This document shows positions 21,685-51,474 of a stretch of DNA of 64,000 bases, one piece after another. Both the position numbers and the translations under genes were made by a program. Source of the stretch: Aciduliprofundum sp. MAR08-339 (GTDB taxonomy: Archaea > Thermoplasmatota > Thermoplasmata > Thermoplasmatales > Aciduliprofundaceae). The stretch is from positions 992,001 to 1,056,000 of the forward strand of contig NC_019942.1 in the NCBI RefSeq assembly GCF_000327505.1, in the 5' to 3' direction. Position 1 is the stretch's first letter. Every line of letters starts with the position of its first letter. The notes under the pieces are model-generated. The model was given only the letters and a program-made list of their open reading frames with translations. It had not been told where the DNA came from and did not search any database.

Positions 21685-22086
21685 ATGAAATACACGATAA
21701 AGGAAGACCCCCACAATGACGAAAGGGTCAAGGAAATTATAGAGATAAGCGGTGAAAATATTTTCGCCTGCTATCAATGTGGCCGTTGTTCTTCTGGATG
21801 TCCCATGGCGGAGTTCATGGATGTGCTGCCCAACCAGGTGTTTATGTTTTTGCAGGAGGGAGATGTGGATACCCTGTTGAATGCCAAGAGTCCCTGGATA
21901 TGCGCCGCGTGCTTCACCTGCACCGTGCGTTGTCCTGTGGGGCTTGATCTTGCGGCTGTGATGGAAGCGATACGCGAGTTACAACTCAGGAAAAATTACG
22001 ATTACGTGGATCCCTACAAGGTGGAAGAGCGCGATGAACTTCCGCCAATCGCACTGGTGAGCAACTTCAGAAAATTCACGCCTTGA
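21685..22086 (+). CDS. hdrC: Heterodisulfide reductase subunit C-like ferredoxin
   Basis: A 133-residue protein with two [4Fe-4S] motifs, CYQCGRCSSGCP and CAACFTCTVRCP, spaced as in soluble HdrC. It passes electrons between HdrA and HdrB. ATG 21685 has GGAGG 7 bases upstream; the frame is open further 5' but without homology. First gene of a run of 12 overlapping or closely spaced plus-strand genes. In methanogens the partner substrate is CoM-S-S-CoB; here no methanogenesis genes are seen, so the acceptor is unknown. Confidence 0.92.
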   Translation: MKYTIKEDPHNDERVKEIIEISGENIFACYQCGRCSSGCPMAEFMDVLPNQVFMFLQEGDVDTLLNAKSPWICAACFTCTVRCPVGLDLAAVMEAIRELQLRKNYDYVDPYKVEERDELPPIALVSNFRKFTP

Positions 22087-22095
22087 GGTGAAAAA

Positions 22096-22986
22096 ATGGA
22101 ATTGAAGAAAATTATGTTTTATCCGGGATGCACACTGAAGGGAGTGGCAAAGAATCTTGAAGATAGCACGGTGGAAAGCGCCCGCGTTCTCGGCTACGAT
22201 TTCATAGAACTTCCAGGTTGGACCTGCTGCGGAGCCGTATATGGATTGGCTCAGGACAGCGTGAAATTCACCATTGCAAATGTTCGCAATCTGATAAAGG
22301 CTCAGAATTATGCAAATGAAATTGGGGACAATCGCCTTGTTGCGGTCTGTTCAATGTGCTACAATAACCTGAGAAGGGCGCACATAGATGTGATGAAGAA
22401 TCGTGATAAACTGAACACCCTTGATCTCTTCATGGACGAGGAGGCAAATTATGAGGGCAACATTGATGTGAAGCATTACCTGACCTTCCTGAAGGAGGAG
22501 GGATTTGACAAAATTGCAGAGAAGGTGAATAACCCTCTGAAAGGGCTGAGAGTTGCTCCTTACTATGGCTGCCTTCTCCTGCGCCCTGATGAGATTGCAA
22601 TTGACAATCGTGAGGATCCGCACATTCTTGAAGAGTTACTGGAAATTTTAGGTGCGGAGGTTGTGGATTATCCCCTCAAAAACGAATGCTGCGGCTCATA
22701 TCACACTGTGGACAAGAGGGAGATTGTGGCGGAGAGAACTTACAAACTGGTAAATGTGGCCCGGGAAACGGGTGCGGATGTGATTGCCACTTCCTGCCCT
22801 CTATGCTTCTTTAACCTTGACAGGAGGCAGGAAATAGCAAAGAATAAACATTCCGATTTTGAGTTCATGCCCATTGTTTATTTCACGCAACTTATGGCCA
22901 TTGCATTCGGAATTAAGGATGATAAGGTGCTTCATTTTGAGCAGCATTACATATCTCCCAAGGAGGTGCTTTCAAGATGGCTATGA
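22096..22986 (+). CDS. hdrB: Heterodisulfide reductase subunit B-like protein
   Basis: A 296-residue protein with two complete CCG domains: YPGCTLKG..., GWTCCGAVYG and CSMCYNNLRRA in the first half; YYGCLLLRP, NECCGSYH and SCPLCFFNLDRR in the second. In methanogen HdrB such motifs bind two noncubane [4Fe-4S] clusters that cleave a disulfide. All cluster cysteines appear intact, so this copy should be catalytic. It follows hdrC by 9 bases and overlaps hdrA by 10. Confidence 0.93.
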   Translation: MELKKIMFYPGCTLKGVAKNLEDSTVESARVLGYDFIELPGWTCCGAVYGLAQDSVKFTIANVRNLIKAQNYANEIGDNRLVAVCSMCYNNLRRAHIDVMKNRDKLNTLDLFMDEEANYEGNIDVKHYLTFLKEEGFDKIAEKVNNPLKGLRVAPYYGCLLLRPDEIAIDNREDPHILEELLEILGAEVVDYPLKNECCGSYHTVDKREIVAERTYKLVNVARETGADVIATSCPLCFFNLDRRQEIAKNKHSDFEFMPIVYFTQLMAIAFGIKDDKVLHFEQHYISPKEVLSRWL

Positions 22987-25900
22987 AGAGAATTGGTGTG
23001 TTCATATGCCACTGTGGCCGTAACATTGCGGGTACTGTTGATGTGAAACGGGTTGCGGAGGAAATCGGTAAGAGAGAGGATGTGGCCTTCTCCACCACCT
23101 ATGTTTTCATGTGCTCACAGCCTGGCCAGAAACTGATTGAGGATTCAATAAAGAAGTACAATTTAGATGGTGTAGTGGTTGCAAACTGCTCTCCTACCCT
23201 TCACGAGAGGACAATGCGTAACGCGGCAGCGAGAGCGGGACTGAATCCTTACCGCGTGGAAATTGCAAACATAAGAGAGTGGGCTGCCTGGCCCCACGAG
23301 GACAATCCTGAGGCGGCGACTAGGAAGGCAATACGCATAATAAACGCCACCATTGAGAAACTCAAAGCGAATGCCTCTCTGCATCCTATTGAGGTATCCG
23401 TTAAGAAGCGTGCCTTGGTGATTGGAGGTGGAGTAGCCGGAATGCAGGCTGCTCTGGATCTCGCAGATGCAGGGATTGAAACTGTGGTGGTTGAGAAAGA
23501 ACCATCCTTGGGGGGAAATATGATAAGGTTGAGCGAAACATTCCCAACTTTGGATTGTCCGCAGTGTATTCTCACACCGAAGATGAACGATGTGGGTGGT
23601 CATCCGAATATAAAGTTGTACACCTACAGTGAGGTTGAAGAGGTTGAGGGGTATCTGGGCAATTTCAAGGTTAAGATAAAAAGAAAATCACCGTTCATTG
23701 ACTGGAATAAATGTACGGGATGCGGGGAATGCGCCAAAGTTTGCCCCACGGTGCTTCCAAGCGATTTTGATTTGAAGATGGCAACACGCAAGGCAACCCA
23801 CATTCCCTTTGAGCAGGCAGTTCCATTCAAGTACACCATAACTTACAATGGAGTGCCGCCCTGTAACGCTGCCTGTCCTCTGCATTTGGATGCTCAGGGC
23901 TATGTGGCTGCTGCAAAGGCAGGAAGATTTGATCGCTCCATTGATGTTGTGTGGGAGAAACTTCCTTTTGCGGGGATTGCTGGAAGAATATGTACGCACC
24001 CATGCGAATCAGCCTGCTCCCGCGGTGATATTGACAAGCCTGTGGGAATAAGGGAGATAAAGAGATTTGTTGCCGACTGGGCTGTCAAGAATCGCAGAAA
24101 GTACATCTTGCATGTTAAGGAGGAGCGTGATAAAAGCGTTGCCATAATCGGGGCCGGTGCTGCAGGTCTTATGGCCGCCCATGATTTGAGGGAGATGGGA
24201 TACAAGGTTACCGTGTACGATAAACTCCCTGTGATCGGAGGTATGCTTGCTGTAGGTATTCCTCCATACAGGCTTCCGCAAGATGTTATAGATTACGAGG
24301 TGCAGCCCCTGATAGATGCGGGCGTGGAATTTGTTTTGAACTATGAGGTTAACGCGGATAATTTTGAAGAGATCAGAAAGAAGCACGATGCAGTTATAAT
24401 CGCGATAGGTACTCACAAGGAGAGGCACCTGGACATTCCAGGAGAGGACAAGGCAATGCACGCGCTGGAATTCCTGAAGAAGGTGAATCTGGGAGAGAGG
24501 ATGGACATAAAGGGCAAGAAGGTCATAGTTGTTGGTGGTGGAAACAGCGCCGTTGATGCCGCACGCACCGCTCTTCGCCTTGGAGCGGATGTCACCATTG
24601 CTTACAGAAGAACCCGTCAGGAGATGCCCGCCATTCCTGAGGAGATGGTGGATGCAGAGGAAGAGGGTGTGAAATTTGAATTCCTAGTTAGCCCGGCAGA
24701 GATACTGGACGGCAAGATAAGGATGGAGAGAATGAAACTGGGTGAGAAGGATTCCAGTGGAAGACGCAGGCCCGTGCCAACTGGAGAATTTGTGGAACTT
24801 CCGGCGGATATAGTGATCCTTGCCGTTGGAGAGTTGCCTGATGCATCCTTTGCCGAGAAATTGGGCATTGAAACTGAAAGAAATCGCATAAAGGTGAATG
24901 AGTTCATGCAAACCTCCCTGCCCAATGTTTTTGCCGCGGGAGATGCGGTGACAGGGGCATGGGATTGGGTACACGCCGCTGCCTATGGAAGATGGGCTGC
25001 AAAGAATGTGGCTCACTTCCTGCAGGGTGAGGAGATGGAGAAAGTGCAGATAGAGATGCACTCAAATCTGCGCGGATACAAGGAACTCGCCTATCCTGCC
25101 AAGAGGCACGATACCAAGAAGCTTGATATGGAGGAAAGGCGCAGCACGTTCAAGGAGTTCAATCTTGGATACAGTGATGAGGATGTTGTTGATGAGGCAA
25201 AGCGCTGCCTTGGATGCGGTGGCTGTGCAAAATGCGGCCTTTGCGTGGAGGTCTGCGAGGCGAATGCCATAGATCTTCATATGAAGGACTGGTATGTGGA
25301 GGAGGAGGTTGGCTCAATAATTGTGGCCACTGGCTTTGAGGTAATGCCCGCTGAAGCATTTCCCGAATTGGGTGGCAAGTATCCGGATGTTATTACATCT
25401 TTGCAATTTGAGCGTCTTCTTGCCCCATCAGGTCCTACTGCAGGTGTTCCAAAAAGACCTTCTGACGGGAAGATTCCCAAGAGCATAGTGTTTGTGCACT
25501 GCGTGGGCTCAAGGGATCCACAGAGTGGAGTGCCTTACTGCTCAAGAATATGCTGTATGTACACCATCAAGCAGGCAATGCTAGTCAAACACGCGTTCCC
25601 AGATATAGCGGTTTACGATTTCTACATTGATATCAGATCCAATGGCAAGGGATACGAGGAGTTCTACCACCGTGCAAAGGAGGAGTATGGGGTGAACTTC
25701 ATACGCGGCAAGGTCTCCAAGGTTTACAAGGTTGGAGATAGATACCGTGTGCAGGGTGTGGATACGCTTACGGGAAGGATAATTGAGGTTGATGCAGACA
25801 TGGTCATTCTGGCCACCGCTGCCAAGGGTTCGTCCACGGTTAAAAAACTGGCGAAGAAGTTGCGCATCCCGTACGATGAGTGGGGCTGGCTTAAAGAGAC

Positions 25901-26294
25901 GCATCTCAAACTCAAGCCCCTGGAGACTCCAGTGGGCGGAGTGTTCATTGCTGGTGCTGCTCAGTTCATAAAGGATATAACGGATAGCGTCTCGCAGGGC
26001 AGCGGTGCCGCTGCGAAAGCCATGGCTCTTCTCTCCAAGCCGCAGCTGGAGAAGGAACCACTCCTAGCGAAGGTTGACCCTGAGATTTGCGCCGGGTGCG
26101 GAAGATGCAAGGATCAGTGCGCCTACGGAGCCATAACAATAGATCCCATACGGCATGTTTCCGTTGTCAACGAGGCACTGTGCGAAGGTTGCGGTGCCTG
26201 CAGCGCCAACTGTCCAACCACTGCAATTCAGGTGGTGAACTTCAAGAAGGGACAGGTGATTCGTGCTGTTGACATACTCGCGGAGGTGTTCTAA
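22977..26294 (+). CDS. hdrA: HdrA with inserted GltD/NfnB-type flavoprotein module
   Basis: HdrA is the FAD-containing subunit that performs flavin-based electron bifurcation. This one has 1105 residues against about 650 for standard HdrA. Order: an HdrA N-terminal domain; FAD motif VIGGGVAGMQAAL (about 147-160) with TLDCPQCILTPKM; ferredoxin motif CTGCGECAKVCP (about 246). Next comes an inserted block of roughly residues 290-690 matching glutamate synthase small subunit/NfnB: PPCNAACPLHLDAQGY, IIGAGAAGL (FAD, about 388), VVGGGNSAVDAAR (NAD(P)H, about 518) and FAAGDAVTG. HdrA sequence then resumes (CLGCGGCAKCGLCVEVC) and ends with two more ferredoxin motifs (about 1038 on). NAD(P)H is therefore a likely electron partner. 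Confidence 0.92.
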   Translation: MAMKRIGVFICHCGRNIAGTVDVKRVAEEIGKREDVAFSTTYVFMCSQPGQKLIEDSIKKYNLDGVVVANCSPTLHERTMRNAAARAGLNPYRVEIANIREWAAWPHEDNPEAATRKAIRIINATIEKLKANASLHPIEVSVKKRALVIGGGVAGMQAALDLADAGIETVVVEKEPSLGGNMIRLSETFPTLDCPQCILTPKMNDVGGHPNIKLYTYSEVEEVEGYLGNFKVKIKRKSPFIDWNKCTGCGECAKVCPTVLPSDFDLKMATRKATHIPFEQAVPFKYTITYNGVPPCNAACPLHLDAQGYVAAAKAGRFDRSIDVVWEKLPFAGIAGRICTHPCESACSRGDIDKPVGIREIKRFVADWAVKNRRKYILHVKEERDKSVAIIGAGAAGLMAAHDLREMGYKVTVYDKLPVIGGMLAVGIPPYRLPQDVIDYEVQPLIDAGVEFVLNYEVNADNFEEIRKKHDAVIIAIGTHKERHLDIPGEDKAMHALEFLKKVNLGERMDIKGKKVIVVGGGNSAVDAARTALRLGADVTIAYRRTRQEMPAIPEEMVDAEEEGVKFEFLVSPAEILDGKIRMERMKLGEKDSSGRRRPVPTGEFVELPADIVILAVGELPDASFAEKLGIETERNRIKVNEFMQTSLPNVFAAGDAVTGAWDWVHAAAYGRWAAKNVAHFLQGEEMEKVQIEMHSNLRGYKELAYPAKRHDTKKLDMEERRSTFKEFNLGYSDEDVVDEAKRCLGCGGCAKCGLCVEVCEANAIDLHMKDWYVEEEVGSIIVATGFEVMPAEAFPELGGKYPDVITSLQFERLLAPSGPTAGVPKRPSDGKIPKSIVFVHCVGSRDPQSGVPYCSRICCMYTIKQAMLVKHAFPDIAVYDFYIDIRSNGKGYEEFYHRAKEEYGVNFIRGKVSKVYKVGDRYRVQGVDTLTGRIIEVDADMVILATAAKGSSTVKKLAKKLRIPYDEWGWLKETHLKLKPLETPVGGVFIAGAAQFIKDITDSVSQGSGAAAKAMALLSKPQLEKEPLLAKVDPEICAGCGRCKDQCAYGAITIDPIRHVSVVNEALCEGCGACSANCPTTAIQVVNFKKGQVIRAVDILAEVF

Positions 26295-28838
26295 ATGGGG
26301 AAGGTTTTGATTTACGGTACGACTCTCGCCACATATCGCGCTGCTGCGAATTTTGCGAGGGCTGGCCACAAGGTTATTCTCCTCAATCGCGGTGAGTTCC
26401 TCTGGCACAAGTTCACGCAGATGCAGTGGCAGATGCCGAGAGACATTGCGAATGGTTATTCAAAGGCGCTACTGCTCAACGCCGCCAACATGACTGGAAA
26501 TATCGAGGTTTTCAACAACTCGGAGCTTCTGGCGGTGGAAGGTGGCCCCGGAAACTTCAAGGTGAGATTCAAGCACAGACCTGCGAGTGTGAATGAGTTC
26601 AGGTGTATTGGCTGCGATATATGCCATGAGAAATGCGATGTGAAGTTCATACCCATGCCCCTTGGCCCGGGGATGAGGATAATAAAGAACGCGGAAGAAT
26701 GTGAGGATGTCTGTCCGGCGAAGGCAATACAAATCCCCAAGGAGGAGGAGCGGGAAGAGAAGGTGGAAGCTGTCATTCTCTCGCCAGAATACGAGCCAGA
26801 TGGAATTGAAAAATACGGTGGCAATTTGAAGAATGTGATGAACTTCCGTGATTTTGCGTGGATGTTCAGAGGTAAGGGCGTGCATAAGGAATTTCTGAAG
26901 AGGGAAGATGGTAAGTATCCAAAGAGCATTGGCTTCTTCACCCCTGCGGGCTTTGATGGCTATCTCGGCTCATACGAGGAGCAGGTCATACTTTTCAGAG
27001 AAGCACTGGCAATGAAAGAGATGGATTCTTCGCTGGATGTTCACATATTCGCGAAAGAATTGCGCATGTACGGGCACAATCAGATGCGCCTTTACGATGA
27101 GGCGTTGGCTAAAGGTATAAAGGTTCACATAATTGACGATATAAGCGTGGTGGAGGATGGAGACGGAGTGAAGGTCAATGATGTTCATCTGGACCTATTT
27201 GCGGTGCTTCCGGGACAGAAGATTCCCGATGAGTGGATTGAGCTGGCAAAAAGAGCGGGGATTGAAACCGAACACGGATTTGCGAAGACGAAGCCATTCA
27301 CCTTTGAGACAACAAGGGACGGTGTGTTTGCACTGGGCGAGTTCGTCAAGCCCGTGGGAAGCACCGAAGCCATATACCAAGGCACTGCAATAGTTCCCCA
27401 GGTGGAGAAGTACCTCTCTGAGGGAAAGATTCCCGAGATGCCAAAGGGAGAGTTCAAGCAGGATGACTTTGAGCCGAAGGTTGGCGTGTTTATCTGCGAG
27501 TGCGCTGCGAAGGAATTCAACATTGATGTGAACGCTGATTTTGTCATAAAGAAGGATTTCCTCTGCTTGAGGGGCGAGGAAATTGTGAAGGATATAAAGG
27601 AGAATGGAATGAACCGCGTGGTGTTTGGTGCGTGCTCTCCCGCGCTCAGAGGTGCTATGCTGGAGATGCTCGCCGCAAAGGCGGGAATTGCACCCTCTTA
27701 TGTGGAGCTGGTTCAGCTTAGGGAGTATGCATCAAGGGTTGGCGCAGATTCTAGGAAGGCGAATGCCATGCTCAACGGCGCAATAGCTAAGGCGAGGAGA
27801 GATGTTCTCGTTGAGGTGCCTGTGGAAAATACGGTTAAAAGTGTTGCGATAATCGGCGGAGATGTTGCCGCGCTTATGGCGGCGGATTATCTCATTGACA
27901 AAATCCCGCTGGTTTACATAATCACCGAGGAATTTGACGAGCCCATTCTTGCAACTGGTGTGAAGGAGAACACGCTGAATATGAGGGACGAGGAACTCAA
28001 AGAGTGGTACGAATCTCTGAAGAAGAGAGTCCTGAGCAGAGCAAAGTGGATAAAGGGAAATGTGGAGAGCATTGAGGGCTCGCTGGGCAACTTCTCCCTT
28101 AAGGTTGGAGAGGAAAGAGTGGATGCAGGAGTTCTGATAATCGCTCCCGGCGCGGATGTGGTGGGCGATGGAAATCACATTGTTTCAAGAATGAACGGAG
28201 ACACGCTTCATGCACCCGTCTCTGCAATCTACGCTAAGAGAGAGGGAAAAGATGCAACATACGATTTGATGAAATCCTACTCTCTCATGGACCTCAATCC
28301 CCCAAATGCAAAACGGGGCGAGGGAGAGCCCCTTGCGTATGTGAAGCCAAGAGAGGTGAACAAGAAAATTGCGGAGATGCTTGGCCTTCGTCTGGACAAG
28401 GAGGGTTTCTTCTTCTTCGCCGAGGAGCCAAGGTACTGGATTGAGAGGGTCAGCAATCAGTTTATGCACTTTGAGGATTCCTTTGCAGGAGTGTTCATAG
28501 CCGGTCTTGCGCACAGGCCCATGAGCATTGAGGAGGAGATGGAAGAGGCTGGATTCGCAGCTCAGAGTGCAAAGATGCTAATGCGCGATATACCCAGTCC
28601 TGCAGGAAAATTCGTAAGTGTCACAAACCCGCGCAAATGTGCGGGATGCGGAATATGCGTGGACGCCTGTTTCACCGGCTCCCGATACATTGATGAGGAG
28701 GATCACATAGCCAAGGTCAGACCTGCACTCTGCGTAGGGTGCGGGGCATGCGCGAACGTCTGCCCCAGCGGGGCGGCGATAATAAGGGCATACAGCCCAA
28801 CAGGAGTGTTTGAAATGTTAAAGGAGGTAGTAAAATGA
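26295..28838 (+). CDS. Second HdrA-like protein with degenerate flavin sites
   Basis: An 847-residue protein that looks like one and a half HdrA units. The N-terminal dinucleotide site reads LIYGTTLATYRAAANFA, missing the usual GxGxxG. A ferredoxin motif CIGCDICHEKC follows at about residue 103, with a partner CEDVCPAKA. At about residue 397 a second HdrA-type N-terminal domain begins (KVGVFICECAAKEF), followed by a weak FAD site AIIGGDVAALMAADYL. The C-terminus has two full [4Fe-4S] motifs, CAGCGICVDAC and CVGCGACANVCP. It starts directly after hdrA. It may be a scaffold or wire rather than a second bifurcating flavoprotein; QmoB is a comparable HdrA derivative. Confidence 0.85.
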   Translation: MGKVLIYGTTLATYRAAANFARAGHKVILLNRGEFLWHKFTQMQWQMPRDIANGYSKALLLNAANMTGNIEVFNNSELLAVEGGPGNFKVRFKHRPASVNEFRCIGCDICHEKCDVKFIPMPLGPGMRIIKNAEECEDVCPAKAIQIPKEEEREEKVEAVILSPEYEPDGIEKYGGNLKNVMNFRDFAWMFRGKGVHKEFLKREDGKYPKSIGFFTPAGFDGYLGSYEEQVILFREALAMKEMDSSLDVHIFAKELRMYGHNQMRLYDEALAKGIKVHIIDDISVVEDGDGVKVNDVHLDLFAVLPGQKIPDEWIELAKRAGIETEHGFAKTKPFTFETTRDGVFALGEFVKPVGSTEAIYQGTAIVPQVEKYLSEGKIPEMPKGEFKQDDFEPKVGVFICECAAKEFNIDVNADFVIKKDFLCLRGEEIVKDIKENGMNRVVFGACSPALRGAMLEMLAAKAGIAPSYVELVQLREYASRVGADSRKANAMLNGAIAKARRDVLVEVPVENTVKSVAIIGGDVAALMAADYLIDKIPLVYIITEEFDEPILATGVKENTLNMRDEELKEWYESLKKRVLSRAKWIKGNVESIEGSLGNFSLKVGEERVDAGVLIIAPGADVVGDGNHIVSRMNGDTLHAPVSAIYAKREGKDATYDLMKSYSLMDLNPPNAKRGEGEPLAYVKPREVNKKIAEMLGLRLDKEGFFFFAEEPRYWIERVSNQFMHFEDSFAGVFIAGLAHRPMSIEEEMEEAGFAAQSAKMLMRDIPSPAGKFVSVTNPRKCAGCGICVDACFTGSRYIDEEDHIAKVRPALCVGCGACANVCPSGAAIIRAYSPTGVFEMLKEVVK

Positions 28839-29281
28839 GCGAAAAGAAGTTTGACCCAGTGATTGTTGGCTTTTTCTGCAACTGGTGCACATCCGCAGCG
28901 GCGGATCTTGCGGGAACATCGCGATTGCACTATCCGGCGAGCATAAGACCGATAAGGGTTATGTGCTCGTCAACGGTGGACCCTGTGTACTTGATTCGTG
29001 CCCTGCAGGAGGGTGCCGATGCCACGATTCTCGGAGGGTGTCACCCTGGAGATTGTCACTACATAACGGGCAACTACAAAGCGAGGAGAAGAGTGGCAAT
29101 AGTGAAAACAGTGCTTAAATCCCTGGAATTTGATGATGATCGCGTTCTTCTGGAGTGGATATCCGGAAGTGAGGGTCCCAAGTTTGCAAGGGTTATGAAT
29201 GAATACACAGAGTACATAAAGAAGAAGGGTCCCTCAGATTTCAAGTATCTTGACTCACTTGGAGGTGAAAAGATTGAGTGA
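28835..29281 (+). CDS. mvhD: MvhD/HdrD-type [2Fe-2S] delta subunit
   Basis: A 148-residue protein that normally links HdrA to a hydrogenase, formate dehydrogenase or other electron source. The family cysteines are all present: GFFCNWCTSAAADLAG, VMCSSTVDP and GGCHPGDCHYITGNYKARRR. No MvhA/MvhG hydrogenase subunits are nearby; instead an FrhB/FdhB-like protein follows, which implies a non-hydrogenase electron donor. It overlaps the preceding gene by 4 bases. Confidence 0.92.
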   Translation: MSEKKFDPVIVGFFCNWCTSAAADLAGTSRLHYPASIRPIRVMCSSTVDPVYLIRALQEGADATILGGCHPGDCHYITGNYKARRRVAIVKTVLKSLEFDDDRVLLEWISGSEGPKFARVMNEYTEYIKKKGPSDFKYLDSLGGEKIE

Positions 29282-30341
29282 AAACGATATGCTCAAAAAA
29301 TTCATAGTGGATGCCTTTGAGAAAGGTCTCATTGAGGCGGTTATGGCTCCTGCAGCCACAAAGGACTCTTACACCTACGCACTCGTAACTAAAAAGGAGG
29401 ATGTGGAGAAATTAACACCCATTGCACCTGTGATGCAGTGGAACGGTGCGGATATGATCAGGCGCATAACAAAGTTGAAGAAGAGTGAGAAAAAGTTGCT
29501 TGCCATACTCAGACCATGTGAGGCGAGAACATACAAAGAGCTTGTCAAATTCAATCAGATCAATCCTGAGAACATAATCGTGCTGAGTTACGATTGCCCT
29601 GGAACGATTCATGCACGCAAGTTCAAATTCGAACTCAATAAGCCTGAGGATCTCATTGATGAGATAAAGAAGGGTGGAAAGAGCGATAAGATTCGCGATT
29701 CCTGCAAGGTTTGCGAGTATCCATCGCCCATCCCTGGTGTTGGGGATATTGGTTTGGGACTTGTTAACACAGAGGAGCCTGTGTTTTTCTCTCTGAGTGA
29801 TAAGGGCAAAGAATTTCTGGCAGGTATGGGAATTGAAGAGGGCTCTCGTGACAACGGGGCCTGGGTTGAAGAGCATAGAAAGCGTAGGGCGAAGTGGCTT
29901 GAAGAGGAACGCATCCGCAATGGCCGTGAGGGTCTTGAAGATTTCCTATCCTCGTGCCTGAACTGCCACAACTGCAAGGACATGTGCCCCATCTGCTTCT
30001 GCAAAGAGTGTTTCTTTGAGGACCACAGCGTGTTTGACTACGAGTCCAACAAGTTCTACAACTGGGCAGATGACAAGGACGGAATTCGCCTGCCCACGGA
30101 TAAATCGCTTTTCCATATCGGCAGGTTGATTCACATGGGTACCTCGTGCATTGGCTGCGGCCTGTGCCAGCAGGCATGCCCCATGGACATTCCTCTTTAT
30201 CGCCTGTTCGGCATAGTGGGCAATGACCTGCAGAAGGTGTTCAACTATAAGCCGGGCGTGAACGATGACCTCCCTCCCGTTATGGATTTCCGTGAGGATG
30301 AACTTCATGAATTCGAGGGTCTCCTGGGGGGTGAGGAGTGA
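29274..30341 (+). CDS. FrhB/FdhB-family iron-sulfur flavoprotein subunit
   Basis: A 355-residue protein of the coenzyme F420 hydrogenase/formate dehydrogenase beta-subunit family. The family core is seen in LLAILRPCEARTYKEL and IIVLSYDCPGT, and cluster motifs in CLNCHNCKDMCPICFCKECFF and CIGCGLCQQACP. Such subunits bind FAD and oxidise F420H2 or transfer electrons from formate dehydrogenase; no FdhA catalytic subunit is in the window. The start is TTG 29274, which has GGAGGTG (29261-29267) at 6 bases; ATG 29289 is the alternative. It overlaps mvhD. Confidence 0.85.
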   Translation: MSENDMLKKFIVDAFEKGLIEAVMAPAATKDSYTYALVTKKEDVEKLTPIAPVMQWNGADMIRRITKLKKSEKKLLAILRPCEARTYKELVKFNQINPENIIVLSYDCPGTIHARKFKFELNKPEDLIDEIKKGGKSDKIRDSCKVCEYPSPIPGVGDIGLGLVNTEEPVFFSLSDKGKEFLAGMGIEEGSRDNGAWVEEHRKRRAKWLEEERIRNGREGLEDFLSSCLNCHNCKDMCPICFCKECFFEDHSVFDYESNKFYNWADDKDGIRLPTDKSLFHIGRLIHMGTSCIGCGLCQQACPMDIPLYRLFGIVGNDLQKVFNYKPGVNDDLPPVMDFREDELHEFEGLLGGEE

Positions 30342-31162
30342 TGGGAAAGAAGGTTGAATTGCTTGATGTGGATAGCGAGAAGGTTATGAATGAGATCCGC
30401 AAGGCTGCTTCGCCTCCAGAAGAGGTGAAGCACTGGGTTACCATATATGTGATGGGCAAGCCATATCGCGTACCTGCAGGATTGACCATAATGAAAGCTC
30501 TGGAATATGCGGGATACAGGTACATAAGAGGTGCAGGTTGCCGTGCTGGATTCTGCGGTGCGTGTGCCACCATATATCGGAAGAAGGGTGAGTATCGTTT
30601 TAGAACCGCCCTTGCGTGCCAGACGACGGTGGAGGATGGGATGTACCTGGCCCAGGTTCCCTTTGTGCCCGCCAACAAGGCCACATACAATATAGACGAG
30701 ATAGAGCCCACGCCCACCACTCTGCTTGAATATTATCCAGAGATTGCAAGGTGCGTCTCGTGCAACACCTGTACCAAGGCTTGTCCGCAGGAACTTGATG
30801 TTATGTACTACATTCAGTACGGTATCCGTGGCGATATAAAGAAAGTTGCCGAATTGAGCTTTGACTGTATTCAGTGCGGGTTGTGCACATTACGCTGTCC
30901 CGCCGAGATACAGCATTATCACATGGCTCAGTTTGCTCGCAGGCTGTACGGCAAGTACTATATGAAGAGATCTCCGTTCTTGAAGAGGAGGTTAAAGGAG
31001 ATTGAGTCAGGAATGTACGAGAAGGCCTTTGAGCAGATAAAGAAATGGAGGGAGGAAAACCCCGACAGGGTTAAGGAACTTTACAGATACATAATTAATA
31101 ATGGAAGGGAGAAGGAAAAGAAACTGATTGAAAATCCACTTGCAAGGTTGGGAGAGGATTAA
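30341..31162 (+). CDS. Fumarate reductase/succinate dehydrogenase iron-sulfur subunit (TfrB/SdhB-like)
   Basis: A 273-residue protein. A [2Fe-2S] ferredoxin domain carries GCRAGFCGACATIY with a further Cys in ALACQT. Two [4Fe-4S] motifs follow, CVSCNTCTKACP and CIQCGLCTLRCP. This differs from standard SdhB (one 3Fe-4S site) and is closer to methanogen TfrB-like or HdrC-like proteins. Residues beyond about 210 form a charged helical tail. It stands just upstream of the flavoprotein subunit, and no membrane anchor genes follow. Confidence 0.87.
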   Translation: MGKKVELLDVDSEKVMNEIRKAASPPEEVKHWVTIYVMGKPYRVPAGLTIMKALEYAGYRYIRGAGCRAGFCGACATIYRKKGEYRFRTALACQTTVEDGMYLAQVPFVPANKATYNIDEIEPTPTTLLEYYPEIARCVSCNTCTKACPQELDVMYYIQYGIRGDIKKVAELSFDCIQCGLCTLRCPAEIQHYHMAQFARRLYGKYYMKRSPFLKRRLKEIESGMYEKAFEQIKKWREENPDRVKELYRYIINNGREKEKKLIENPLARLGED

Positions 31163-31163
31163 A

Positions 31164-32864
31164 ATGGCTGATTTGAAAATGATTAGAGGATACCCGGAGT
31201 ATATGCGTGAGAGCATAGAGATGGTGGAAAAGACTAGGGATGAGAGGATAAAGAACAAGGAGAAGGAGATAGAATTTGCCCTTACAATGGAAGAGCGCGA
31301 GGAGGTTTTAAACAAATTCCATCCGGATTATGCACCAGGTGGCAAGAGAGAGTTGAGGGTTGGACCAAACCGCGGAGATATTGTGCCAAATGAGGTGGCC
31401 GATATACTTGAGGCATGGCCCGCGTTGAATCCAGAGGATGTGGATTTGAACGACATTGATTACGACGTGGATATCCTCATAATAGGTGGAGGAGGCGCTG
31501 GAACAGTAGCAGCTCTCTGGGCCAACTATGAGGGAATTCCTGCTGAAAACATACTTATTGCCACAAAACTGAGACATGGGGATGCCAATTCAATGATGGC
31601 TCAGGGAGGTATTCAGGCTGCAGATCGTCCGTGGGATTCTCCTGTGATACATTATCTGGATGTTCTTGGTGGTGGCCACTTTGCTAACAAGCACGAATTG
31701 GTTAAGGCACTCACGGAGGATGCACCATTCATAATAAAGTGGCATGAGGAACTGGGAGTTATGTACGATAAGGACGAAAATGGAAATTTCATTGAGAGGT
31801 GGGGCGGAGGTACCTCAAGAATGAGATTGCACTCTGCCAAGGATTACACTGGAATGGAAATAATGAGGGTGATTCGAGATGAGGCTAGGAACCGCGATAT
31901 TCCCGTGCTTGAATTCTCCCCCGGCGTTGAACTCATAACCACTGAGGACGGTGAGATAGGAGGTGCAATACTCTGGAATATGGAAACCAAGGAGTACTAC
32001 GTTGTCAGAGCGAAGGCAACAGTTCTTGCCACAGGTGGCTGGGGCAGATTGCACATTCGCGGTTTTCCAACAACAAATCATTATGGAGCAACTGCAGATG
32101 GCCTTGTCATGGCCTATCGCGCCGGGGCAAGGTTGAGGGATCTGGAGTCTGTGCAGTATCATCCTACCGGTGCGGCCTATCCTGAGCAGATAGTTGGACT
32201 ACTCATAACTGAAAAGGTTCGTGCAATGGGTGCCACCCCTGTGAATAAGTACGGGCAGGCATTCGTGTTTCCCATGGAGCCAAGGGATGTTGAAGCGGCC
32301 ATGTTCATAAGAGAGTGCTATGGAAAGGGTAACTGTGTTGTAACTCCAACGGGTATGCGTGGTGTATGGCTTGACTCGCCCATGATCGAAGAACTCAGGG
32401 GCGAGGGTGCAATTCGTAAGAATCTTGATGCAATGTACCGTATGTACAAGAGATTTGGCATAGACATGACCAAGGACCCGATTCTTGTGTTCCCCACGCT
32501 CCACTATCAGAATGGAGGAGTGGAAATAAATGCGGATGCTCAGGTGATAAGGGCAGATGGAAGCCCGTACCCAAGATTCTTCGCAGGTGGCGAAGTTGAG
32601 GGCGGAGTGCATGGAAAGAACCGCCTGATGGGTAACTCTCTCCTTGACTATAATGTATTCGGAAGGAGAGCTGGAATAAGCGCTGCTAAGGTTGCCCGTA
32701 ACTCAGGCAAACCTGGAAAGTTAACTCTGAAGCATGTGAAACTTTTCACAGAGGAGGTTAGAAAGATAAATGTGCCTCCTGAGCGCAGAAGCCCGATACT
32801 CCTGCCCGATTACCGCGGAAAGAGGGTACTGGCTAGGAAAATAGATTTGCCTGTACTGGAGTGA
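31164..32864 (+). CDS. Fumarate reductase/succinate dehydrogenase flavoprotein subunit
   Basis: Interconverts fumarate and succinate. The protein has 566 residues. The FAD site DVDILIIGGGGAGTVAALWA begins at about residue 97 after an unusual, charged N-terminal extension of about 95 residues. Family blocks include SMMAQGGIQAA, ATGGWGRLHI, GATADGLVMAYRAGA, QYHPTG (substrate region), GGEVEGGVHGKNRLMGNSLLDYNVFGRRAG. Whether it runs as reductase or dehydrogenase cannot be read from sequence. No cytochrome or anchor subunit is present, so it should be soluble and exchange electrons with the neighbouring Hdr-type proteins. Confidence 0.9.
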   Translation: MADLKMIRGYPEYMRESIEMVEKTRDERIKNKEKEIEFALTMEEREEVLNKFHPDYAPGGKRELRVGPNRGDIVPNEVADILEAWPALNPEDVDLNDIDYDVDILIIGGGGAGTVAALWANYEGIPAENILIATKLRHGDANSMMAQGGIQAADRPWDSPVIHYLDVLGGGHFANKHELVKALTEDAPFIIKWHEELGVMYDKDENGNFIERWGGGTSRMRLHSAKDYTGMEIMRVIRDEARNRDIPVLEFSPGVELITTEDGEIGGAILWNMETKEYYVVRAKATVLATGGWGRLHIRGFPTTNHYGATADGLVMAYRAGARLRDLESVQYHPTGAAYPEQIVGLLITEKVRAMGATPVNKYGQAFVFPMEPRDVEAAMFIRECYGKGNCVVTPTGMRGVWLDSPMIEELRGEGAIRKNLDAMYRMYKRFGIDMTKDPILVFPTLHYQNGGVEINADAQVIRADGSPYPRFFAGGEVEGGVHGKNRLMGNSLLDYNVFGRRAGISAAKVARNSGKPGKLTLKHVKLFTEEVRKINVPPERRSPILLPDYRGKRVLARKIDLPVLE

Positions 32865-32869
32865 TAAGA

Positions 32870-33643
32870 ATGAGGATAATGCTTCATGGATGGGACACTT
32901 CCCACAAGTTGGGTGTGCCGGAGATATGCGATGCTTCCAAGTCCATAGTGACAAAGATGGGGCACGAGTTCGTGCCAAATGAAAGTAAGGTCATATGTGC
33001 GGAGGCCATAGGATTTTTGGGCTACGATAATCTAACCGATGATTTTGCCAAGGCAACGGTTAAGGAGATCGAGGAGAAGGTTAGCAAATACGACATCGAT
33101 CTCATTCTCACATCCTACGCTGCCCCCTATGTGGCCTGGAGTAAGGAGTTAAATGGATTTCTGGTAAAGAGAGGGTATGAATTACCCGTACCTATTGAGC
33201 ACATATCTACATTCCTATACAAGAACTTGGATAAACTCAAGTTCAGGGAACTGCCAATGAAGATCTTGCTGCATGATGGCTGTACCCTCGGTCGAAAGTA
33301 CGGTGTGGTTGAGCCACCACGAAAGGTCTTGGAGAAGATACCAAAACTGGAGTATCTGAATTTTGACCATCCTGAACTGTATGTTAAAGAGCGCAACCTG
33401 AAACCGTGGGATATATCTGCCTGTCCTGGAGGATGGCTTGATTTCACCATGCCAGAACTTATGCCCTACGTGGCAAGTAACGTTGTTCGTGAGTACGCGT
33501 TGCCAAGGGATGTGGATGCTATAGTGACCACCTGTGGCAATGGATATCACGCTTTCAAGGCAGGAATAAAGCACTCTGGATTTAACATCAAGGCATATAG
33601 CTATACCAATCTTGTGGACATGGCCCTTGAGGGGGTGGAGTGA
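32870..33643 (+). CDS. HdrB/SdhE-like CCG protein with incomplete cysteine motifs
   Basis: A 257-residue relative of HdrB, SdhE and the C-terminal half of TfrB. In a full CCG protein each half has C, CC and CxxC. Here the first half has lost the pattern (LHGWDTSH, VICAEAIGF). The second half keeps only single cysteines (HDGCTLGRKYG, SACPGGW, TTCGNGYH). At most one, altered cluster could bind. Its position after the fumarate-reductase flavoprotein matches SdhE in anchor-modified (type E) succinate dehydrogenases. It could therefore be the electron entry point or only a structural remnant. Confidence 0.82.
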   Translation: MRIMLHGWDTSHKLGVPEICDASKSIVTKMGHEFVPNESKVICAEAIGFLGYDNLTDDFAKATVKEIEEKVSKYDIDLILTSYAAPYVAWSKELNGFLVKRGYELPVPIEHISTFLYKNLDKLKFRELPMKILLHDGCTLGRKYGVVEPPRKVLEKIPKLEYLNFDHPELYVKERNLKPWDISACPGGWLDFTMPELMPYVASNVVREYALPRDVDAIVTTCGNGYHAFKAGIKHSGFNIKAYSYTNLVDMALEGVE

Positions 33644-34927
33644 ATGATAGATGATGTTTATGAAGAATACGTGAATCGCATCGTGGAATACGGTGCAAAG
33701 AGTGAGAAGGTTCGCATAGCATTATCCCGTGCGATAAATGCCTTTGAAAATAATCGCCGCAACGCTTTGAGTCTGTTTCCAAATTCCGTTGAAACTGCGG
33801 AAGAGGTTAGAAAAATCAAGGAATACTCCATTGAGCATATGGACGAACTGATAAAGAAGGCATGTGAGAGCATTGAACGTAATCACGGTCACTGCTATTA
33901 TGCGAAAACCAAGGAGGAAGCCCTGCAGATATTCAAGGAACTCGTAGGCAGTGGAAAACTCATAGTTAAGAGCAAGAGTCTAACAAGCGAGGAGATACAT
34001 CTTCGCGAATTTCTGGAAGAATTGGGTAACGAGGTTTATGAAACTGATCTGGGCGAGTTCATAGTGCAACTGATGGGCACGAGGCCAACACATATTCTTG
34101 CACCTGCCATCAATGTGCCCCGAGAGGATGTTGCGAAGGTACTCAGCAAATTTATGAAGGATAAGGGCATAATTGAGAAGGATCTTGACGAGCAGGATAT
34201 ACCTAAGATGGTTGAGACGGTGCGCAAGTTTCTGAGGGATAAGTACTTTAAGGCAGATATTGGAATAAACGGAGCCAATGCTCTTGCCGCAGATACGGGC
34301 ACGATGTTCATAATTGAGAATGAGGGAAACGCAAGGTTGAGCATTGGAGCTCCCCCCGTGCAAATAGCGATCGTGGGCGTGGAAAAAATCGTGCCCACAA
34401 TTGAAGATGCATTCAAGGTCACGGAGGTTACCTGGAGGTATGCCAATTACACAGTGCCGGCATATGTGAACCTCGTGTCAGGACCGAGCAAGACCGGAGA
34501 TATTGAGAAGGTCATAACTTATGGGGCACATGGTCCAAAGGAGCTCCATGTGATTCTCCTTGATAACGGCCGAACGAAGATGCACGAGGCGGGTTATGAT
34601 GAAGCCCTCTATTGCCTGCGTTGCGGTACCTGTCTCTACGAGTGCCCGGTTTATGCGGTAACCGCTGGATTCTTCGGGCAGCAGTACATGGGTGGAATAG
34701 GTGCCATATGGGATGCGTTCACCACTGTTGGTCTTGAGAAGGCCAGTCCCATAGCATACACATGCACCCGCTGCGGCAAGTGCAAGGTTATGTGCCCCCT
34801 GAATATTGATATTCCTGGAATGATATCAAAACTGCGCAATGATGCTCGCAAGCAGGGCTATGTGCCCAAGATTGTTAGGGAATTTGCCCAGGAAATAGAA
34901 GAATTCATACAGGAGTCCAAAGAATAA
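33644..34927 (+). CDS. LutB/LldF-like LUD-domain iron-sulfur protein
   Basis: A 427-residue protein with an N-terminal LUD domain (NGANALAADTGTMFIIENEGNARLS, the ligand-binding region) and a C-terminal pair of ferredoxin motifs, CLRCGTCLYECP and CTRCGKCKVMCP. LutB is part of the LutABC L-lactate oxidation system. No LutA or LutC is adjacent, and HdrB-type proteins (LutA relatives) are upstream. It starts right after the CCG protein. A role in lactate or other 2-hydroxyacid oxidation, or as another electron carrier of the cluster, is inference. Confidence 0.83.
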   Translation: MIDDVYEEYVNRIVEYGAKSEKVRIALSRAINAFENNRRNALSLFPNSVETAEEVRKIKEYSIEHMDELIKKACESIERNHGHCYYAKTKEEALQIFKELVGSGKLIVKSKSLTSEEIHLREFLEELGNEVYETDLGEFIVQLMGTRPTHILAPAINVPREDVAKVLSKFMKDKGIIEKDLDEQDIPKMVETVRKFLRDKYFKADIGINGANALAADTGTMFIIENEGNARLSIGAPPVQIAIVGVEKIVPTIEDAFKVTEVTWRYANYTVPAYVNLVSGPSKTGDIEKVITYGAHGPKELHVILLDNGRTKMHEAGYDEALYCLRCGTCLYECPVYAVTAGFFGQQYMGGIGAIWDAFTTVGLEKASPIAYTCTRCGKCKVMCPLNIDIPGMISKLRNDARKQGYVPKIVREFAQEIEEFIQESKE

Positions 34928-34976: not shown

Positions 34977-36287
34977 ATGGCAGATGATATTGGAAACAAG
35001 GCCTTGGAAAGGCATGAGGTGTATAGGGGCAAGATTCAGATGTTACCAAAGGTACCTGTCAGGGGCCGTGGAGACCTTAGCATATGGTACACCCCCGGGG
35101 TGGCCGAGCCCTGCAAGGCCATTAAGGAGGACCCGGAAAAGGTTTACGAATACACCAACAAGGGCAACACCGTGGCTGTTGTGAGTGATGCCACCCGCAT
35201 CCTTGGGCTTGGAGATATTGGGCCTCTTGCCGGCTTGCCAGTGATGGAAGGTAAATCACTTCTCTTTAAGCATTTTGGAGGTGTGGATGCGGTACCAATA
35301 ATGCTGGATACGAAGAACCCTGATAAGTTCATTGAAACTGTGAAACTGATAGCACCATCCTTTGGAGGCATAAATCTTGAGGATATCTCCTCTCCGAAGT
35401 GCTTCTACATTCTGGACAGGTTGCGCAAGGAGCTGGACATTCCGGTATGGCACGATGATCAGCAGGGTACTGCAACTGTTGTGCTTGCAGCTGTCCTCAA
35501 TGCCCTTAAGATCGTGGGCAAGAAACTTGAGGATGTGGTTATAGCATCATTCGGTGCTGGGGCTGCTGGATATGCAGTTATGCGTCTTCTTGTGGAAGCG
35601 GGTGTGAATCCCGGAAATATAAGAGTTGTTGAGATGGTGAATCGAGAACCCACTGTGCTGCATCAGCATATGGATCTTGCCAGGCTTTTCCCCTACAGGG
35701 GATGTCTTCTCCGAAAAACAAACAGGGATAATGTGATGGGTGGTCCTGAAGAAGCATTAAGAGATGCAGATATTCTTATATCCTTTACTAGACCCGGACC
35801 AGGTGTGATAAAGAAAGAGTGGATAAAGTTGATGAATGACGATGCCATAGTTTTTCCTCTGGCCAACCCTGTTCCTGAGATTCTACCTGGGGATGCCAAG
35901 GAGGCTGGAGCCAGAATAGTGGGTACAGGTAGATCTGATTATCCGAATCAGATCAATAATTCTCTCGGATTTCCAGGTATATTCAGAGGCGCTTTAGATG
36001 TTCATGCCACGACAATAACGGATGGTATGGCTGTTGCTGCAGCCCACGAATTGGCAAAGGTTGGAGAAGAGGAAGGTTTGAGTGAGGATCACGTTCTGCC
36101 CACAATGGATGACTGGGATGTGTTTGCCAGGGAAGCTGCAGCAGTGGCCATTGCCGCCTTGGAGGAGGGTGTGGCTAGGAAGTATGTTACGTGGGATGAG
36201 GAGTATGAAAGGGCGAGAAAGATTATCAAACTCTCCCGTGATAGTTTAAAGATCCTGATGGATAATGGGATAATAAAGGAGGTATGA
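34977..36287 (+). CDS. NAD(P)-dependent malic enzyme
   Basis: Interconverts malate and pyruvate + CO2 with NAD(P). It has 436 residues: the N-terminal block GRGDLSIWYTPGVAEPCKAI, metal and substrate residues in PVWHDDQQGTATV, a dinucleotide fold VVIASFGAGAAGYAVMRLL, and ANPVPEILP. This is the short prokaryotic form without a phosphotransacetylase domain. ATG 34977 is preferred; upstream ATG 34965 is also possible. It lies 49 bases after the LutB-like gene and overlaps sucC, linking the fumarate/succinate enzymes to pyruvate. Confidence 0.93.
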   Translation: MADDIGNKALERHEVYRGKIQMLPKVPVRGRGDLSIWYTPGVAEPCKAIKEDPEKVYEYTNKGNTVAVVSDATRILGLGDIGPLAGLPVMEGKSLLFKHFGGVDAVPIMLDTKNPDKFIETVKLIAPSFGGINLEDISSPKCFYILDRLRKELDIPVWHDDQQGTATVVLAAVLNALKIVGKKLEDVVIASFGAGAAGYAVMRLLVEAGVNPGNIRVVEMVNREPTVLHQHMDLARLFPYRGCLLRKTNRDNVMGGPEEALRDADILISFTRPGPGVIKKEWIKLMNDDAIVFPLANPVPEILPGDAKEAGARIVGTGRSDYPNQINNSLGFPGIFRGALDVHATTITDGMAVAAAHELAKVGEEEGLSEDHVLPTMDDWDVFAREAAAVAIAALEEGVARKYVTWDEEYERARKIIKLSRDSLKILMDNGIIKEV

Positions 36288-36289
36288 AA

Positions 36290-37396
36290 ATGAATCTGTA
36301 CGAGTATCAAGGAAAGGCGCTGTTTAGGAAATTCGGAGTGCCCACTCCCGAGGGCTATGTGGTATTCAAGCCCGAGGAGATAGGGGAAGTGAACAGGGAC
36401 GTGGTCATAAAAGCTCAGGTCCTCACGGGTGGCCGTGGCAAGAGTGGAGGAGTGAAATTTGCCTCCACCGCGGATGAGGCGAGAAAACTTGCCGAGGAAA
36501 TTCTTTCTATGGAGATCAAGGGGCACAAAGTGCATGCGGTGCTTGTGGAAGAAAAACTCAAAATTGAAAAGGAGTACTACCTGAGCATACTCATTGACAG
36601 GAGCACCAGATCTCCGCTCATAATGGCTTCTCCTGAGGGCGGGGTGGAAATAGAGAGCGTGCCCGATGAGAAGATTTACAAGTACAGAGTGAATCCTGAG
36701 ATTGGGGTGCAGCCATTCGTAGGAAGGATTCTCTCCAAGAAGATGGGTTTCACAGGCGATATGGCAAAGCAGTTTACGGCCATACTCATGAACCTCTATA
36801 AATTATTCAGAGAGTATGATGCTGAACTTGTGGAAATAAATCCCCTTGTGCTGAGTGTGGGTAAGCTTATAGCGGCCGATTCCAAGGTAGTAATTGATTC
36901 TGACTCGCTCTATCGCCATAAAGACCTGGAGGAGAATGCCGAGGAGAAAACTCCTCTGGAACTCGAGGCAAATCGCGCTGGATACGCCTTCGTTGAACTG
37001 GATGGAAATATTGGAGTGATAGCGAATGGAGCAGGACTAACCATGGCCACTCTTGATACACTGCTTCTCTACGGGCTCAAGCCCAGGAACTTCCTTGATC
37101 TGGGCGGAACTGATAGTGTGGATATTACCAAGAATGCATTTACCTACGTGCTAAAAGCCAATCCAGAGGCCATTCTGGTGAATATATTTGGAGGTGTGAC
37201 AAAATGCGATACTGTGGCGCAGGGGATAATAGCGGCAAAGGAGGAATTCAAAATAGATATGCCCATTGTTGTGCGCCTTAGCGGTGTGCATGAGGAAGAG
37301 GGAAGAAAGATGCTGGCTGATGCGGGCATTCACGCATTTGCTGATATGAGGCATGCGATTGAAAAGCTCAAGAAGGTTATGGAGGGATCAGAATGA
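36290..37396 (+). CDS. sucC: Succinyl-CoA synthetase (ADP-forming) beta subunit
   Basis: With SucD it interconverts succinyl-CoA + NDP + Pi and succinate + NTP. It has 368 residues: an ATP-grasp N-terminus (MNLYEYQGKALFRKFGVPTPEG, VIKAQVLTGGRGKSGGVKF), the metal-site region LVEINPLVLS, and the C-terminal NFLDLGGTDSVDITKNAF with NIFGGVTKCD. ATG 36290 has AAGGAGGT 6 bases upstream; ATG 36284 abuts it. It overlaps malic enzyme and sucD by a few bases. Confidence 0.95.
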   Translation: MNLYEYQGKALFRKFGVPTPEGYVVFKPEEIGEVNRDVVIKAQVLTGGRGKSGGVKFASTADEARKLAEEILSMEIKGHKVHAVLVEEKLKIEKEYYLSILIDRSTRSPLIMASPEGGVEIESVPDEKIYKYRVNPEIGVQPFVGRILSKKMGFTGDMAKQFTAILMNLYKLFREYDAELVEINPLVLSVGKLIAADSKVVIDSDSLYRHKDLEENAEEKTPLELEANRAGYAFVELDGNIGVIANGAGLTMATLDTLLLYGLKPRNFLDLGGTDSVDITKNAFTYVLKANPEAILVNIFGGVTKCDTVAQGIIAAKEEFKIDMPIVVRLSGVHEEEGRKMLADAGIHAFADMRHAIEKLKKVMEGSE

Positions 37397-39405: not shown

Positions 39406-39978
39406 ATGGAGTATCATGAGAAAACACCCATCACAGATGCGAGGAAATACAAGGTTGGGGATGTTATATACATCACAGGAGAGGTAATTCTCGCAAGGGA
39501 CGAAGCACATAAAAAACTCCTTGAGGAGGGTGCACCCATTGACCTTGAAGGATCCGTTATTTACCACTGCGGGCCTGTTGTCACAAAGAAAAACGGAGAA
39601 TGGAAGGTTGTTGCAGCCGGTCCAACCACGAGCATAAGAATGGAGATATTTGAGGACGAATTCATTAAGAGGTTCCATCCTGCGATAATCGTAGGTAAGG
39701 GTGGAATGGGCGAGCGCACTCTGAAGGCATTAAAGGAACATGGTGCTGTGTATGCAGCCTACACTGGCGGATGCGGTGCTCTTGCGGCCGAGAGAATAAA
39801 GAGTGTGAAAGAAGTGCATTTTCTAGAAGAACTCGGAATTCCGGAGGCTGTATGGGTATTCCGCGTGGAGGAATTCGGTCCTCTTGTGGTGACAATGGAC
39901 TCCCACGGTAACAGCATATACGATGAGATCGATGAGAAGGCTAAGAAAAATTTGGATGAAATTCTTGCCAAAATTTAA
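39406..39978 (+). CDS. fumB: Fumarate hydratase class I, beta (C-terminal) subunit
   Basis: The partner of the alpha subunit, 190 residues, starting on the base after its stop. Blocks typical of the family: GDVIYITGEVILARDEAHKKL, GPTTSIRMEIFEDEFIKRFHPAIIVGKGGMGE and AAYTGGCGALAAERIKSV. Convergent with the nickel-transporter operon. Confidence 0.94.
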   Translation: MEYHEKTPITDARKYKVGDVIYITGEVILARDEAHKKLLEEGAPIDLEGSVIYHCGPVVTKKNGEWKVVAAGPTTSIRMEIFEDEFIKRFHPAIIVGKGGMGERTLKALKEHGAVYAAYTGGCGALAAERIKSVKEVHFLEELGIPEAVWVFRVEEFGPLVVTMDSHGNSIYDEIDEKAKKNLDEILAKI

Positions 39979-51464: not shown

Positions 51465-51474
51465 GGTGATGAAA

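Follow-up and report, generated by a model that had tools for sequence, protein, structure and literature searches.

Results

Gene content of the cluster

The window analysed here is a 64,000-nucleotide stretch, bases 992001-1056000 of the single-contig genome (1,437,090 bases) of the heat-loving archaeon Aciduliprofundum sp. MAR08-339, and contains a cluster in which genes for heterodisulfide reductase (Hdr) proteins lie beside genes for the fumarate reductase subunits FrdB and FrdA (Table 1). An earlier note on this DNA described ten consecutive, mostly overlapping genes, and we found all ten open reading frames to be intact and on one strand (21685-34927), with intergenic gaps of -10 to +9 bp. 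The subunit identities were backed by Pfam, NCBIfam and PDB profiles, which agreed with the note's assignments of HdrC, HdrB, HdrA-GltD, MvhD and FrdA. The cluster also proved, as had been claimed, to be free of a membrane anchor, of MvhAG and of a formate dehydrogenase (Fdh) catalytic subunit: no transmembrane segment was evident by hydropathy in any subunit (maximum 19-residue Kyte-Doolittle mean 1.65), and the hydrogenases and molybdopterin oxidoreductases of the genome are encoded outside the cluster. The transcription unit probably extends past the LutB-like gene into malic enzyme and the succinyl-CoA ligase genes SucCD, with fumarase next; the gaps are 49 bp before malic enzyme, -4 bp before SucC, -4 bp before SucD, and a further 294 bp before FumA/FumB. 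This extension had been missed in the earlier note, as had the wide distribution of the gene set.

Table 1. Genes of the cluster and of its probable downstream extension, with positions in the window and supporting matches.
Gene product	Position	Strand	Evidence
HdrC-like, two [4Fe-4S], soluble, 133 aa	21685..22086	+	Fer4_8 2.5e-9; two CxxCxxCxxxC motifs
HdrB, two complete CCG motifs, 296 aa	22096..22986	+	CCG 1.7e-22; PDB 9sfi_C 7.1e-38, 5odc_B
HdrA with inserted GltD ("type III")	22977..26294	+	HdrA2 773 bits; PRK12771 495 bits
Tandem HdrA-like, degenerate nucleotide-binding motifs	26295..28838	+	HdrA profiles; Foldseek 8rvu_a 2.7e-23
MvhD/FlpD (ElpC-like) connector	28835..29281	+	FlpD 1.7e-48
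FdhB/ElpB-type iron-sulfur flavoprotein subunit	29274..30341	+	9t1s_M 1.9e-52; 8rvu_E 5.3e-48; 7bkb_E
FrdB, 2Fe-2S and two [4Fe-4S]	30338..31162	+	Fer4_9; Fer2_4; motifs at 139, 177
FrdA catalytic flavoprotein, N-terminal extension	31164..32864	+	FAD_binding_2 1.5e-65; catalytic motifs
Degenerate CCG-related protein, putative accessory	32861..33643	+	CCG 7.5e-7; without CCG motif
LutB-like LUD/Fe-S protein, putative accessory	33644..34927	+	LUD_dom 2.3e-52; TIGR00273 344 bits
Malic enzyme	34977..36287	+	malic 4.4e-34; Malic_M
SucC, succinyl-CoA ligase beta	36284..37396	+	ATP-grasp_2 6.4e-65
SucD, succinyl-CoA ligase alpha	37393..38259	+	CoA_binding; Ligase_CoA
FumA, fumarase alpha	38554..39405	+	Fumerase 1.7e-99
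FumB, fumarase beta	39406..39978	+	Fumerase_C 3.3e-47

Linkage, distribution and exchange of input modules

Of 390 genomes sampled from the phylum, 56 carried the FrdA subfamily of the window, and more than 500 candidate FrdA loci were detected in bacterial and archaeal genomes. The best 80 of these loci include Bipolaricaulota/Acetothermia, WOR-3, Aerophobetes, Aminicenantes and Spirochaetes among the bacteria, and Heimdallarchaeota, Theionarchaea, Methanofastidiosum, Mnemosynella and Thermoproteota among the archaea, so that the combination, for which the earlier note gave no characterised precedent, is not unique and recurs over many phyla of both domains. Neighbouring genes were mapped by tblastn at 109 distinct loci, 54 of which had at least 8 kb of sequence upstream and at least 4 kb downstream. 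Within 10 kb and on the same strand, these 54 loci encoded FrdB in every case, HdrA in 51, HdrB in 46 and MvhD in 44, and HdrA or HdrB stood beside FrdA in 52, in agreement with the proposal that Hdr and fumarate reductase are encoded together as a single unit that is conserved, modular and soluble. HdrB lay at most 3.5 kb upstream, with HdrC-HdrB directly before FrdB-FrdA, at 51 of the 91 loci with at least 3 kb upstream. A limited control of 14 generic Sdh-type flavoprotein loci of the same order, with about 1.5 kb visible per side, showed no Hdr genes.

While Hdr and Frd are constant, the modules through which electrons would enter are swapped. Among 47 loci outside the window's family, we found MvhA at 20, an FdhB-type protein at seven and an NAD-binding/DHODB-type (NAD(P)H) protein at five, identities that were verified by Pfam on representatives. 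In the window's family the input consists of GltD inserted in HdrA, followed by the tandem HdrA, MvhD and the FdhB-type protein. On an Aerophobetes contig (L106), FrdA is followed by a single gene for a tandem HdrA of 1496 aa that includes GltD, and next by MvhD and FdhB, which recombines the parts of the window's cluster in another domain of life. In the FrdA tree, bacterial and archaeal sequences were intermixed, and Bipolaricaulota and Spirochaetota each fell on several branches, a pattern compatible with transfer, without proving it.

The fumarate reductase subunits

FrdA carries the motifs QYHPTG (at 331), TE (349), RD (374), PTLHY (444) and GKNRL (484). It has all the residues for substrate binding and proton transfer that are known from complex II and from soluble fumarate reductases: His333, Thr349-Glu350, Arg374, His447 and Arg487. 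Ten homologues sharing 62-78% identity conserve these residues, His333 being unread (X) in one of them. Because the position of the flavin-linking His of complex II aligns with an invariant Asn142, the FAD of FrdA is probably bound non-covalently, as it is in L-aspartate oxidase and in soluble fumarate reductases. About 95 residues precede the FAD domain, an N-terminal extension that is a trait of the subfamily. FrdA was the single match to itself in its own genome at E<=1e-3, and is therefore the only flavoprotein of the Sdh/Frd/NadB type in that genome at this threshold. It fell under the NCBIfam cut-offs for TfrA, SdhA/FrdA, NadB and MFR, the best match being TfrA (292 bits versus a cut-off of 718). 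The MFR profiles gave 178 of 1100 bits for SdhA and 154 of 500 for SdhE, and no hydrophobic anchor was found by hydropathy; an L-aspartate oxidase was considered and rejected on its NadB score (228 of 453 bits).

FrdB, 274 aa long in the window, lies immediately 5' of FrdA at each of the 71 loci for which 8 kb or more of upstream sequence was available. This protein, earlier described as TfrB/SdhB-like, has the motifs for one 2Fe-2S and two 4Fe-4S clusters, but the CCG half of TfrB is missing, since neither a CCG match nor a CCG motif was present. In four genomes an otherwise full-length FrdA is interrupted by in-frame stops (TAG in G094 and G100, TAA in G065, two TGA in G284), for which pseudogenes, assembly errors and recoding are alternative explanations.

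The Hdr core and the electron-input arm

None of the Hdr proteins reached the NCBIfam equivalog cut-offs (HdrA2 773 of 1100, HdrB 161 of 345 and HdrC 55 of 160 bits), and for the HdrC-like protein both the HdrC and the QmoC matches were under cut-off. The CCG motifs of HdrB are at residues 44 and 198. In HdrA, the GltD match covers approximately residues 291-695, and GxGxx[GA] motifs occur at 150, 392 and 520 along with four [4Fe-4S] motifs, such that HdrA retains a Rossmann motif of its own (GGGVAG at 150) beside those of GltD. The first GltD motif is GxGxxG, and the second, at 520, is GGGNSA (GxGxxA) with YRR downstream, which by the rule given in PMC12054007 suggests NADP(H). On these motifs, HdrA-GltD is a candidate for the site of both the bifurcating flavin and NAD(P)H oxidation. 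At E<1e-20 the genome has just one further match to it, a GltD/Nfn-like protein.

The second HdrA-like protein of the earlier note can be refined to a tandem (type II-like) HdrA, in which both Rossmann GxGxxG motifs are lost in the window's family; both are kept in the Aerophobetes homologue (comparison with the L117 homologue). Its AlphaFold2 model (pLDDT 78) matched HdrA in Foldseek. The sixth protein, previously called FrhB/FdhB-like, groups by profiles with FdhB/ElpB of the Fdh-Hdr and Elp-Hdr complexes, which were also the best Foldseek matches of its AlphaFold2 model (pLDDT 74; 8rvu_E 2e-15, 7bkb_E 1.4e-14), but the Pfam family FrhB_FdhB_C was matched only at E=0.025. In those complexes FdhB/ElpB forms the arm that oxidises F420H2 (PMC12350162).

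Accessory genes and candidate donors

The last two genes of the ten look like an accessory pair. LutB was absent from three genomes (G004, G008 and G010, which are 96, 95 and 99% complete) that keep the eight Hdr-Frd genes, and from all 47 well-covered loci outside the window's family. The gene for the CCG-related protein was also missing, with the eight genes retained, at L097 (G008), L056 (G010) and L094. The LutB-like protein scored 344 bits against a TIGR00273 cut-off of 445, and the CCG-related protein has no CCG motif and only four invariant Cys, and the SdhE role suggested for it earlier is not supported. We therefore rejected both as core subunits, the pair being missing in relatives that have the rest and the CCG protein being degenerate, and found no support for the suggestion that LutB and a 2-hydroxyacid take part in the complex.

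F420H2, the other donor named in the earlier note, is unlikely because CofD was absent from 18 of 18 genomes of the window's family in a search with positive controls, and it was rejected. A formate dehydrogenase partner was rejected as well, the molybdopterin proteins being outside the cluster. At L188:9418-13693 of the window genome, an 872-aa molybdopterin oxidoreductase is encoded with genes of NuoF and NuoE size and appearance, near a membrane antiporter/hydrogenase-like set. As to a hydrogenase partner, the NADP-type hydrogenase of the genome sits beside Nfn-like genes far from the cluster. At that locus (L178:6031-12274) an Nfn-like pair (276 and 476 aa, the latter GltD-like) directly precedes the four genes of an NADP-type [NiFe] hydrogenase, which suggests that the NADPH pool is linked to ferredoxin.

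Discussion

The conserved association of Hdr and Frd genes leads us to regard a functional coupling of the two as highly probable. For the window we infer a physical complex, its bifurcating activity, its reductive direction and NAD(P)H as its donor, and we give even chances to this full reading of the locus as an electron-bifurcating fumarate reductase that is driven by NAD(P)H and works without quinones. In such an enzyme, the first eight genes would encode one soluble Hdr-linked fumarate reductase, in which the GltD insertion of HdrA would oxidise NAD(P)H and the HdrA flavin would split the electron pairs. The high-potential branch would run through HdrC, HdrB, FrdB and FrdA to fumarate, which would replace the heterodisulfide of methanogens, and the low-potential branch would reduce ferredoxin. 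A possible second donor may enter at the FdhB-type subunit via MvhD, as an FdhB/MvhD arm feeds Hdr in ElpABC-HdrABC (PMC12350162). Fumarate could be derived from pyruvate or malate via malic enzyme and fumarase, and succinate could be used or made by SucCD. Reduced ferredoxin could feed the membrane-bound hydrogenase encoded at 46286-51921. This operon encodes antiporter-like, Oxidored_q6, 30 kDa, large, NADHdh and ferredoxin subunits, and its large subunit retains the CGIC and DPCMSC motifs.

From published potentials (fumarate +33 mV, NAD(P)H -320 mV, ferredoxin -420 mV; PMC5861303), the conversion of two NAD(P)H, fumarate and oxidised ferredoxin was calculated to yield about -49 kJ/mol, or about -33 kJ/mol with ferredoxin at -500 mV, and the reverse with NADP+ is uphill. 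This argues for the reductive, bifurcating reading in the window. More broadly, we see the evidence as evenly balanced on a family of electron-bifurcating fumarate reductases in archaea and bacteria with interchangeable input of H2, NAD(P)H or FdhB-type electrons, of which the window would hold the NAD(P)H-driven version.

Several observations weigh against an electron-bifurcating complex of this kind. The loci used for linkage were picked for the similarity of their FrdA, with some lineages contributing more than their share. The earlier note had regarded separate locations of the two halves in relatives as evidence against a single complex; in most lineages the halves lie together, but FrdBA occurs without nearby Hdr genes in some WOR-3/TA06/Stahlbacteria/Aminicenantes contigs (L133, L140, L158, L171), and in the window itself HdrBC and FrdBA are non-adjacent, about 8 kb apart. 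No fusion of FrdB or FrdA with Hdr was detected; the fusions seen joined HdrA to MvhD or were HdrA-like tandems. In addition, it has been argued that a GltD insertion could keep ferredoxin from its site (PMC12054007), in which case the product of bifurcation would be lost unless the tandem HdrA takes over this role. The same blockage would suit a linear, non-bifurcating NAD(P)H:fumarate oxidoreductase, in which electrons would pass from GltD through HdrA, HdrC and HdrB to FrdBA with Hdr as a wire and ferredoxin not involved, and the lost nucleotide-binding motifs of the tandem HdrA point the same way. We nevertheless consider this unlikely, as the window's HdrA has lost neither its own Rossmann motif nor any of its four [4Fe-4S] motifs, many relatives show the layout that is classical for bifurcation, MvhAG with a plain HdrA, and a simple wire would have no need of an additional arm of MvhD and an FdhB-type protein.

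A further alternative, to which we attach slightly less weight still, is that the enzyme runs in reverse, oxidising succinate in a confurcation with reduced ferredoxin that yields H2 or NAD(P)H, and so completes glutamate catabolism by way of 2-oxoglutarate, succinyl-CoA, succinate, fumarate, malate and pyruvate. Malic enzyme and SucCD would work oxidatively just as well, and a 2-oxoacid:acceptor oxidoreductase beta-like gene lies within 10 kb at 34 of the 54 loci, sometimes with SucCD. MvhAG together with low H2 could make this direction feasible in syntrophic relatives, and relatives that have MvhA and, close by, a 2-oxoacid:acceptor oxidoreductase may operate oxidatively; the window, however, has NAD(P)H instead of H2, and confurcation to NADP+ is the uphill reaction noted above. 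The probable non-covalent binding of FAD is also generally taken to favour fumarate reduction. The two complete CCG motifs of HdrB mean that a disulfide substrate is possible, which counts against the bifurcating fumarate reductase and would agree with two separate enzymes joined by a diffusible dithiol/disulfide, like TfrAB and Hdr via coenzyme M (CoM) and coenzyme B (CoB). The same logic was proposed for Mnemosynellales (PMC9635834), and a thiol:fumarate reductase re-oxidising CoM/CoB has been proposed in Sifarchaeia (PMC9723677). We judge this arrangement very improbable in the window, where FrdB lacks the thiol-oxidising C-terminal CCG domain of TfrB and the CCG protein encoded separately, itself degenerate, is dispensable. 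ComA was also absent from 18 of 18 family genomes, in a search whose control was positive in M. jannaschii and not in M. acetivorans, although another route to CoM is possible.

The proposed bifurcating fumarate reductase shares parts with several known systems. Like ElpABC-HdrABC and FdhAB-MvhD-HdrABC of methanogens (PMC12350162; 8RVU, 7BKB), it has an HdrABC core with homologues of MvhD (ElpC) and FdhB (ElpB), but the window's cluster lacks ElpA/FdhA or any molybdopterin protein and its genome lacks CofD for F420, and it has GltD in HdrA, a tandem HdrA, an appended fumarate reductase and no evident methanogenic disulfide. It resembles MvhADG-HdrABC (5ODC) in HdrABC and MvhD, and relatives of the cluster have MvhA beside Hdr-Frd; the window's cluster is without MvhAG, and its terminal acceptor would be fumarate. 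The likeness to TfrAB lies in the Mnemosynella loci (L108, L122), which have the same FrdA subfamily as the window, whereas the low TfrA score, the FrdB without a fused CCG half, the separate HdrB and the N-terminal extension of FrdA set it apart. Type III HdrA of methane-metabolising archaea and Bathyarchaeota (PMC12054007) also has GltD within HdrA; the window's copy, in contrast, sits in a fumarate reductase operon of an organism without CofD and ComA. Unlike in LutABC, the neighbouring protein has no LutA-type CCG motifs and the LutB score is under cut-off, and unlike in quinone-linked complex II/MFR (SdhABE), there is no anchor and the MFR scores are under cut-off.

Hydrogenobacter thermophilus has a soluble, quinone-free, NADH-dependent fumarate reductase of five subunits, the genes of which are scattered. 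The linear oxidoreductase would resemble that enzyme in function; the genes in the window, on the other hand, are clustered.

Synteny of Hdr-like genes with thiol:fumarate reductase has been reported in Mnemosynellales in a paper that also points to Asgard lineages (PMC9635834), thiol:fumarate reductase with Hdr-Mvh has been discussed for Sifarchaeia (PMC9723677), and the GltD-bearing HdrA is known as type III HdrA (PMC12054007). Phrases of the type "electron-bifurcating fumarate reductase" did not occur in the literature searched, which covers few subscription journals, and the same literature held nothing on Hdr and fumarate reductase in Aciduliprofundum. Nor did we find a description there of how broadly Hdr-Frd is spread over archaea and bacteria, of its exchangeable input modules, or of the version with GltD and an FdhB-type subunit.

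Fumarate reduction classically conserves energy via quinone-dependent enzymes in the membrane. If the bifurcating reading is true, it would instead be an energy-conserving reaction of the cytoplasm that involves neither quinones nor a membrane fumarate reductase, and flavin-based bifurcation would gain one more acceptor. Given its recurrence across many phyla, the Hdr-Frd pairing may represent a widespread, so far uncharacterised form of energy conservation without membrane enzymes. In many uncultured anaerobes, fumarate/succinate genes lie next to Hdr, and a soluble route through Hdr would account for how these organisms could conserve energy as reduced ferredoxin. The window's relatives include cultivated archaea of the Aciduliprofundum type, so the idea is directly testable.

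Beside the cluster, a divergent gene of the asparaginase_2 family (20625-21449) and a gene of the Asp/Glu racemase family (18409-19083) are possibly a source of C4 acids derived from aspartate.

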